Shown: piece by piece, positions 12,961 through 14,813 of the stretch
Position numbering within the stretch: the stretch's first letter is position 1
Layout of the letters: each line of letters begins with the position of its first letter
IMG/VR virus record: IMGVR_UViG_3300036851_000283
Location: 1 to 58,751 of that record
Strand: one strand, 5' to 3'
DNA from: a virus
Length of the DNA: 58,751 bases
Position numbers and translations under genes: made by a program
The notes under the pieces: model-generated
Seen by the model: only the letters and a program-made list of their open reading frames with translations
Told to the model about the DNA's origin: nothing
Database searches by the model: none

Positions 12961-14484
12961 ATGATTAAAACAATCACCAAGGAACAGGAAGCGAGATTTC
13001 CAGAGATTCGAGACAAATGGCTTCGCGTTGGACTTTCCACCGATCCTATTGATTTTGATGCAGGAATTAAAAACCTGACACTTTTTCAGAAGAAGATTTT
13101 AGTCAAAAAAGCCGCGCCTGTGGTGTTCTTAAACGGCCCTTTTGATGCGTGGATTGCGGTTTTGTTGTTTGGCGGAATGTCGCAAGTCCAGTCGCAAGTC
13201 CGGTCGCAAGTCCAGTCGCAAGTCTGGTCGCAAGTCGAGTCGCAAGTCCGGTCGCAAGTCCAGTCGCAAGTCCGGTCGCAAGTCGAGTCGCAAGTCCGGT
13301 CGCAAGTCTGGTCGCAAGTCCAGTCGCAAGTCCGGTCGCAAGTCTGGGCGCAAGTCTGGGCGCAAGTCGAGTCTCAAGTCGAGTCGCAAGTCCAGTCGCA
13401 AGTCGAGTCGCAAGTCGAGTCGCAAGTCGAGTCGCAAGTCTGGTCGCAAGTCGAGTCGCAAGTCCGGTCGCAAGTCCAGTCGCAAGTCCGGTCGCAAGTC
13501 CAGTCGCAAGTCCGGTCGCAAGTCTGGGCGCAAGTCGAGTCTCAAGTCGAGTCGCAAGTCCAGTCGCAAGTCCGGTCGCAAGTCCAGTCGCAAGTCTGGG
13601 CGCAAGTCGAGTCGCAAGTCCAGTCGCAAGTCGAGTCGCAAGTCGAGTCGCAAGTCCGGTCGCAAGTCTGGGCGCAAGTCGAGTCTCAAGTCGAGTCTCA
13701 AGTCGAGTCGCAAGTCCAGTCGCAAGTCGAGTCGCAAGTCCGGTCGCAAGTCCAGTCGCAAGTCGAGTCGCAAGTCCAGTTGCAAGTCCGGTCGCAAGTC
13801 TGGTCGCAAGTCCAGTCGCAAGTCTGGTCGCAAGTCCAGTCGCAAGTCCGGGCGCAAGTCGAGTCTCAAGTCGAGCTTGTCTGGCCTTATTGGGATTCCC
13901 AGTTTTGGTCTGGGTATTTTTCGTACTTTGATACCATGGAATCGCTGGGGCTAAAATTTTCAGAGTGCTATCACATCCTCAAAAACTGCGTTGGATTTGG
14001 CCCTGTATGGCCGCTCGACAATTTGTGCATCGCCAGCATCAGACCATCGGCAATCAGGATGCGTAACGAGCTGCTTCATTCGGATGGATCGCCGTCAGTG
14101 GAATACCTTGATGGCACCAAATGCTACACGCTGAACGGAATTCCGGTAAAAGACTGGCACGCCCTGACCCCCGCCGAGAAGATTGACCCCAAACAAGTGC
14201 TGGCCGAAGAAAATTCAGACATTCGGCGCGAACTAATCCGAAAGCTCGGCATTGAGAGAATGCTGGCCGTGCTTCCAAACAAACGGCTCGACAAGCGTGA
14301 GGATTACGAGGTTTATTCGATAGACTTGGGCGATGGCGTGAGAGATGCGAGATACCTGAAAATGATAAATCCGAGTATCGGAGTATTCCACCTGGAGGGA
14401 ATTGATCCGAGTTGCGACACTGTAATCAAGGCTTTGAATTGGAGAAACCAAAATCGGTTTGAAAACGCGGAAATATTAACATGA
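12961..14484 (+). CDS. SQV-tetrapeptide repeat protein, DUF6745-like C-terminus
   Basis: 507 residues. Residues 1-73 are a short lead-in; residues 74-305 are 58 tandem tetrapeptides of the form S-Q-V-x, where x is only Glu (20), Gln (15), Arg (13) or Trp (10). The remaining 200 residues contain '[11 protein letters not shown]', '[10 protein letters not shown]' and '[15 protein letters not shown]', which recall from memory the bacterial family DUF6745; members of it can carry a comparable low-complexity repeat N-terminally. Function of that family is unknown. Own dyad promoter, leaderless-type start, and overlap with the next gene point to a two-gene module. Confidence 0.75.
13180..13875 (+). 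repeat. 58 tandem copies of a 12-bp unit
   Basis: 696 bases of the unit TCGCAAGTC-NNG without a frame break. The variable codon is only CAG, CGG, GAG or TGG; the serine codon changes to GCG in six units and to TTG in one. The array leaves long open frames in other phases and on the minus strand; these are by-products of the repeat. Confidence 0.95.
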
Positions 14485-14813
14485 AAACACAAATCAAAAT
14501 TGCAAAAACCAACTTCCAACAAGGGGATGTTTTAGCGGTCAAGCTGGACGCGATGCCTTGCGGCGAAAAGAAGTCCGTCGCAAAAAAACACTGCGTCGTC
14601 GCCCACGGTGAAAGCGGACACTCGCACATCATTGACTGCGATGATGCTGAGCTAATCCAGATTGGCGAGCGCATGTTGCTCAAACTGGGGTCGCACGCAA
14701 ATCTCATGCACGAGGAGCATAAGCCAATCACGCTCTCGCCAGGCATTTGGGAGATTGGCCGCGTTCAGGAATACGATTACTTCGCGAAAATGGCGCGGGA
14801 TGTGAGGGATTGA
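14481..14813 (+). CDS. Partner of the repeat protein, GDVL/HEEH type
   Basis: 110 residues, small beta-rich protein. Conserved-looking points are 'QGDVLAVKLDAMP', 'GESGHSHI', 'LMHEEHKPI' and 'RVQEYDYF'. From memory, proteins with this pattern are found beside DUF6745 genes in bacteria and phages, so it is probably the functional partner of the gene at 12961, with which it overlaps by 4 bases. The His and Glu residues could form a metal site. Function unknown. Confidence 0.7.
   Translation: MKTQIKIAKTNFQQGDVLAVKLDAMPCGEKKSVAKKHCVVAHGESGHSHIIDCDDAELIQIGERMLLKLGSHANLMHEEHKPITLSPGIWEIGRVQEYDYFAKMARDVRD

Follow-up and report, generated by a model that had tools for sequence, protein, structure and literature searches.

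A tandem tetrapeptide array in a phage gene is part of a widespread module of two genes, present here as a phage copy, in which one gene joins a conserved tail to an exchangeable repeat section. The array lies in IMG/VR virus record IMGVR_UViG_3300036851_000283, whose 58,751 bp are referred to here as the window. Gene A encodes a protein with an N-terminal domain, the array and a C-terminal DUF6745 domain; gene B, which nearly always adjoins A, encodes a short partner with an HEEH motif. The two genes co-evolve. Gene A is modular: what accompanies the DUF6745 tail varies across relatives, from tetrapeptide arrays that differ in chemistry to tripeptide arrays, leucine-rich repeats (LRRs) or no repeat at all. 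We tentatively read the pair as a conserved platform of two proteins that carries an exchangeable and diversifying rod for recognition, with a probability of about 0.38.

In the window, genes A and B overlap by 4 bp, as originally described, and share ATGA. To find relatives, IMG/VR was scanned with an alignment of the partner, which confirmed 126 relatives, of which 80 were kept; DUF6745 tails in the viral loci were called by home-made profiles. The tail is on the same strand in 53 of the 54 viral partner loci having at least 1.5 kb on each side and lies no more than 100 bp from the partner in 64/71 viral loci. Only nine viral loci have no tail, and eight of these have a cut flank. Both gene orders occur, A-B in 44 and B-A in 36. 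A genome scan yielded 47 further partner loci with DUF6745 in 44 and, in 28, genes of the STM4011-STM4015 cassette as well. NCBIfam models confirm what these cassette genes are in plasmid examples. Co-occurrence elsewhere, whose absence had been set beforehand as a refutation of the original prediction, was found at viral and genomic loci alike. The distance matrices of tail and partner correlate with r=0.80 (0/2000 permutations). The pair is found in phages, plasmids and chromosomes, and that it recurs in either gene order and in numerous genomic contexts fits the proposal that it acts as a self-contained cargo module. Two loci differ in content: a Heimdallarchaeota metagenome-assembled genome (L115) has the pair without repeats, and a Phycisphaerae locus (L137) combines three DUF6745-like open reading frames (ORFs) with one partner.

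Counting in frame, we obtained exactly the 58 S-Q-V-x units that had been proposed for gene A (Table 1). Tandem Repeats Finder (TRF) places the 12-bp repeat at 13179-13872 with period 12, 57.8 copies and 0 indels, and a chance origin of the array is excluded. Other reading frames are also open through this section; the coding frame is known because the conserved N-domain and tail flank it. As evidenced by the codon-by-codon count, the fourth residue is indeed limited to Glu (20), Gln (15), Arg (13) and Trp (10), written only with GAG, CAG, CGG and TGG. The repeat had been called strict. This holds for the four-residue period, for Q (CAA in 58/58 units) and for V (GTC in 58/58), and nearly for S (TCG/TCT), which is replaced in seven units, six times by A (GCG) and once by L (TTG). 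AlphaFold2 (AF2) models the N-domain and tail of gene A confidently. The structure prediction proposed for the repeat returned a helix, at low confidence for the single chain.

Units of one array differ almost solely at one or two residues. Over 40 arrays the median nonsynonymous diversity (piN) is 0.147 per site and the median synonymous diversity (piS) is 0, with piS=0 in 22 arrays; the variants among units comprise 194 amino-acid versus 35 synonymous changes (P from 4e-14 to 3e-3 by site model). The alphabet of variable residues, hereafter letters, is set at the protein level. It consists mostly of R, W/Y, G/S and E/D/Q, with R nearly universal and K, P, T and A almost missing, and the aromatic letter follows the third base of the variable codon, being W if this is G and Y if it is C. 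SQV is written TCG-CAA-GTC in the window, TCA-CAA-GTC in L003 and TCA-CAA-GTT in L021, and the SV of xSV arrays is written with several codon pairs. Because codons for the same residues differ between arrays in this way, we infer conservation at the protein level together with recent homogenization. The same clean signature, amino-acid diversification without synonymous change, is seen across dozens of arrays that differ in codon use.

Arrays are homogenized at the DNA level and can grow or shrink by in-frame blocks; those of L068 and L069, near-identical loci with identical tails, differ by one such block. Letter order is near random at lags 1-8. One-unit slippage as the only source of the arrays was rejected, as identical neighbors are not in excess, whereas simulated one-unit duplication gave a lag-1 Z of ~2-5 at most mutation rates. 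We also simulated block duplication plus mutation in a simple (toy) model. High letter entropy without synonymous variants arose in at most 17% of runs unless the letter rate was ~100 times the synonymous rate, and with equal rates the observed pattern appeared in at most 3% of runs.

The repeat section itself takes many forms. Units of the phage arrays include SQV[EQRW], QQV[RGE], NQ[IV][GRW], SQL[DGWR] and SSL[GEWR] as well as [DA]SV[GRWS], [DA]QV[RWSG], [GD]AV[GRD], [DA]AT[DYLR] and NA[VA][DYR]. Period-3 arrays ([DA]-A-[RIMLW]) take the place of tetrapeptides in L028, L042, L062 and L123. Array length ranges from about 4 to 66 units, and the array is absent in Microcystis phages and in L022, L027 and L045. 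DUF6745 members of the STM cassette have LRRs before the tail and no tetrapeptide array, and cyanobacterial members can have classical LRRs (LRR fusions). Cyanobacterial relatives also display degenerate period-4 segments at the same place, e.g. SQLSSQLKSQLVSQL in L161. One array sits in the plasmid record of a named Nocardia farcinica strain, which disfavors a metagenome artefact. In two loci the arrays are frameshifted (L004 4758-5999 and L013 760-1320), through sequencing error or in reality, and in L013 one unit measures 11 rather than 12 bp. Close to a member that lacks an array, an ORF at 7642-7992 of L063/L064 opens with MKRKYIVQFMTQLISQLLTQFGTQFGAQF, another period-4-like repeat start.

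The tail of gene A matches Pfam DUF6745 (PF20530) over residues 344-458 with E=3.2e-10 and 40.1 bits (cut-off 27). A DUF6745-like tail had been proposed in the original prediction, and the profile search that could have refuted the link instead upheld it. PHROG family phrog_31813 is matched as well (7.3e-10). The window protein covers only profile positions 37-151 of 206, and relatives match the entire profile (L035, 1-206); the model leaves out the N-domain and the repeat array. A Pfam scan of the window gene A gave no match to an LRR consensus. NCBIfam matches to ClfA/SdrC were set aside as low-complexity matches to the array, as was the single strong PADLOC match, REase_II, which aligns to the SQVx repeat and is compositional. 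Outside the low-complexity repeat no PADLOC model gave a credible defence-system match, and PDB sequence and fold searches returned nothing significant for either protein.

For gene B, no Pfam, NCBIfam or PADLOC model matches, and the PHROG search returned only phrog_27831 (3.9e-7; function not annotated). The alignment of 60 partners bears out the earlier suggestion that the HEEH partner belongs to a real family: G15, D16, G46, H47, H49, H77, H80, E97 and D110 are invariant, and the motifs QGD, GE..GH.H, H.EH (HEEH at residues 77-80 in the window) and C-terminal R.V.D are invariant or nearly so, the window protein included. Judged from its sequence, B probably binds metal via its histidines. 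The AF2 model is all-beta, with a predicted local distance difference test score (pLDDT) of 88 and a predicted template modelling score of 0.79. Foldseek with this model found no solved relative. Among viral predicted structures, the hits were a Caudovirales homologue and, at weaker similarity, archaeal rod-shaped virus proteins, from Acidianus rod-shaped virus 2 (E 2.6e-3, prob 1.00) and SIRV1 (prob 0.99). This likeness between predicted folds suggests a wider viral family.

LRRs replace the repeat section and only its letters change, from which we infer that the section serves recognition. In the reading we favor, the array would form a rod, probably alpha-helical, showing a string of arginine, aromatic, acidic and small residues, and this rod would recognize a changing partner, for example a host or rival-phage factor. 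DUF6745 and B would be the constant part that couples recognition to effect, perhaps by tying up the target or inactivating it. For a phage, the benefit may be counter-defence, superinfection exclusion or host take-over. The letters would be renewed by diversifying selection or by a hypothetical targeted diversification process, while recombination between identical 9-bp cores would shuffle and homogenize the array. The most economical setting would be an arms race against a factor of the host or of a rival phage. A bolder version, in which the arrays are a code-like recognition polymer with one letter per four-residue unit drawn from a small alphabet (basic, aromatic, acidic, small), rewritten fast by phages through a dedicated or strongly selected process to match changing targets, is in our view distinctly unlikely.

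Several points weigh against a recognition rod. Structure and sequence searches found a solved structure or named function for neither family, and the pair has no known target, binding activity or phenotype. Since many members have no array at all, the basic function does not depend on one. The reverse link between the genes is looser, with B within ~1.5 kb at 21/46 newly found genomic DUF6745 loci. The AF2 helix has a pLDDT of only ~47-81. Most arrays stem from metagenome assemblies, and some are related rather than independent. Short-read assembly favors aperiodic arrays, which weakens the argument from random letter order.

The main rival takes the array for a passive helical stalk or spacer of which only length and gross composition count, with letters drifting neutrally after recent expansion. 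We disfavor it and regard it as somewhat unlikely. The wide range of array lengths, the members without any, the predicted helix and the degenerate segments of the cyanobacterial relatives all suit a spacer. Neutral letters, however, should not outpace synonymous sites as they do here, and the equal-rate simulation seldom reproduced the observed pattern. A recurring alphabet in which codon ending sets W or Y is likewise not expected of an inert stretch. The near-constancy of synonymous sites inside each array could instead mean that the repeat is selected as DNA, as a decoy site or a recombination or replication signal, with the protein reading secondary, and in several phages recombination genes are indeed found close to the arrays. 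Against this, the same residues are encoded by different codons in different arrays, most arrays stay in frame with nearly all changes altering an amino acid, and no DNA core common to all arrays is apparent. Selection on the DNA is thus very unlikely.

An ordinary conflict module of the toxin-antitoxin or defence type, in which B would be neutralizer or enzyme and the array a regulatory or stability element, would account for two small adjoining genes in phages, plasmids and chromosomes and for the HNH and endonuclease VII-like genes that share the cargo region with them. However, neither a toxin or nuclease nor any known antitoxin fold was found, PADLOC gave nothing credible, and DUF6745 occurs at times without B, so we consider this unlikely. 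The STM4011-STM4015 cassette, which comprises two radical-SAM genes, an ATP-grasp-like gene (weak Pfam match) and a hydrolase gene and accompanies the pair at 28/47 genomic loci, brings to mind a further role for the W, Y and R residues, as substrates of modification like that of ribosomally synthesized and post-translationally modified peptides. Yet cassette members have LRRs instead of arrays, and the viral loci searched, including the window, hold no STM4011-4015 gene. With no such gene nearby, a modification substrate in phages is hardly credible. Long repetitive rods occur in phage tails, and the original prediction had put the pair among virion genes, which together raise the possibility that the pair belongs to the virion or tail, where the array would act as length ruler or fibre. 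This is most improbable: relatives often have the pair near genes of DNA metabolism (single-stranded DNA-binding protein, DUF3799 PD-(D/E)XK, YqaJ, DNA polymerase, ParB, DNA methylase), the pair also sits in chromosomal cassettes, and the virion identity of the flanking window genes is not confirmed.

Indeed, the large flanking ORFs of the window match no PHROG or Pfam family, so the proposed insertion between virion genes could not be confirmed. A search for known phages carrying the large upstream ORF 4693-7026 found none. Neighbors of the module are an HNH endonuclease, an endonuclease VII-like gene, methyltransferases and a possible glycosyltransferase. The HNH endonuclease (12202-12930) and the endonuclease VII-like gene (17135-17986) flank the cargo region and are possible mobility agents. 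The module is bracketed by a 26-bp direct repeat with a palindromic -35-like element, of which the window has two copies and 100 shuffles had none. The promoter that the original prediction had assigned to the pair finds weak support in one sigma-70-like site upstream of A at 12927 (TTGACA-16-TAGAGT, 10/12 matches). Looser palindromes of the type TTGACA-N6-TGTCAA number 17 in the window (both strands, overlapping pairs counted twice) versus 1.7 expected, at positions 9064, 12927, 14810, 28656, 31290, 38878, 40077, 41136, 47473 and 55421. This recurrent palindrome is probably a phage-wide promoter or operator. Because it is common across the window, the module is probably under the phage's own regulatory signal.

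Table 1 Features of the two-gene module and its boundaries in the window.
Feature	Position	Strand	Details
Promoter/operator-like site, direct-repeat copy 1, upstream of A	12927..12952	+	Palindromic TTGACATCTATGTGTCAA then TGTGTAGA
Gene A	12961-14484	+	507-aa ORF
Gene A, N-terminal helical domain, residues 1-73	12961..13179	+	Kept in relatives (alignment); AF2 pLDDT mostly >90
Gene A, array of 58 units S-Q-V-[EQRW], residues 74-305	13180..13875	+	TRF and in-frame codon count
Gene A, C-terminal DUF6745 domain, residues 306-507, and stop	13876..14484	+	PF20530, phrog_31813; AF2 pLDDT mostly 78-96
Gene B, 110-aa HEEH partner, all-beta	14481..14813	+	phrog_27831; alignment of 60; AF2
Direct-repeat copy 2, module boundary, upstream of next ORF (14849-15112)	14810..14835	+	

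Diversity-generating retroelements focus variation on chosen residues of a phage protein, much as seen in these arrays. Such an element was rejected here, as the window contains no reverse transcriptase (the record may be a fragment) and changes are not confined to adenine positions. In the literature searched we found neither the phage pair, nor the partner family, nor diversifying tetrapeptide arrays; the nearest relatives are the amino-acid tandem repeats of Borgs, which are likewise in-frame, recent and fast-changing in proteins of mobile elements (PMC9879509). Borg repeats are nearly all perfect, with no single-nucleotide polymorphisms, and spread over many different proteins (PMC9879509), whereas the arrays described here belong to one protein family and combine a fixed 9-bp core with one variable codon. 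Should the arrays indeed serve recognition, few modular recognition repeats would be as simple, and conflict between phage and host or between phages would gain a new layer. If they were code-like, they would be a four-residue analogue of the modular recognition of transcription activator-like (TAL) or LRR proteins, and possibly a categorically new recognition repeat.

Among named phages, Microcystis phage Ma-LMM01 carries a DUF6745-like tail and an HEEH partner in gp174/gp175. It differs from the window in having no array, in the upstream position of the partner and in its location near DNA polymerase and uracil-DNA glycosylase genes. As far as the literature searched shows, DUF6745, of which we found no mention there, and the STM cassette, whose STM401x genes are barely mentioned, are named but uncharacterized. 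The STM4011-STM4015 cassette (NF038073, PRK08208, NF038075, NF038074, NF038076) shares the B-DUF6745 pair with the phage module and differs from it in its LRRs and in its own genes, which are confined to the genomic loci. With arrays and LRRs alternating on one constant domain, the phage module offers a direct handle on the roles of DUF6745 and of the STM4011-4015 cassette.
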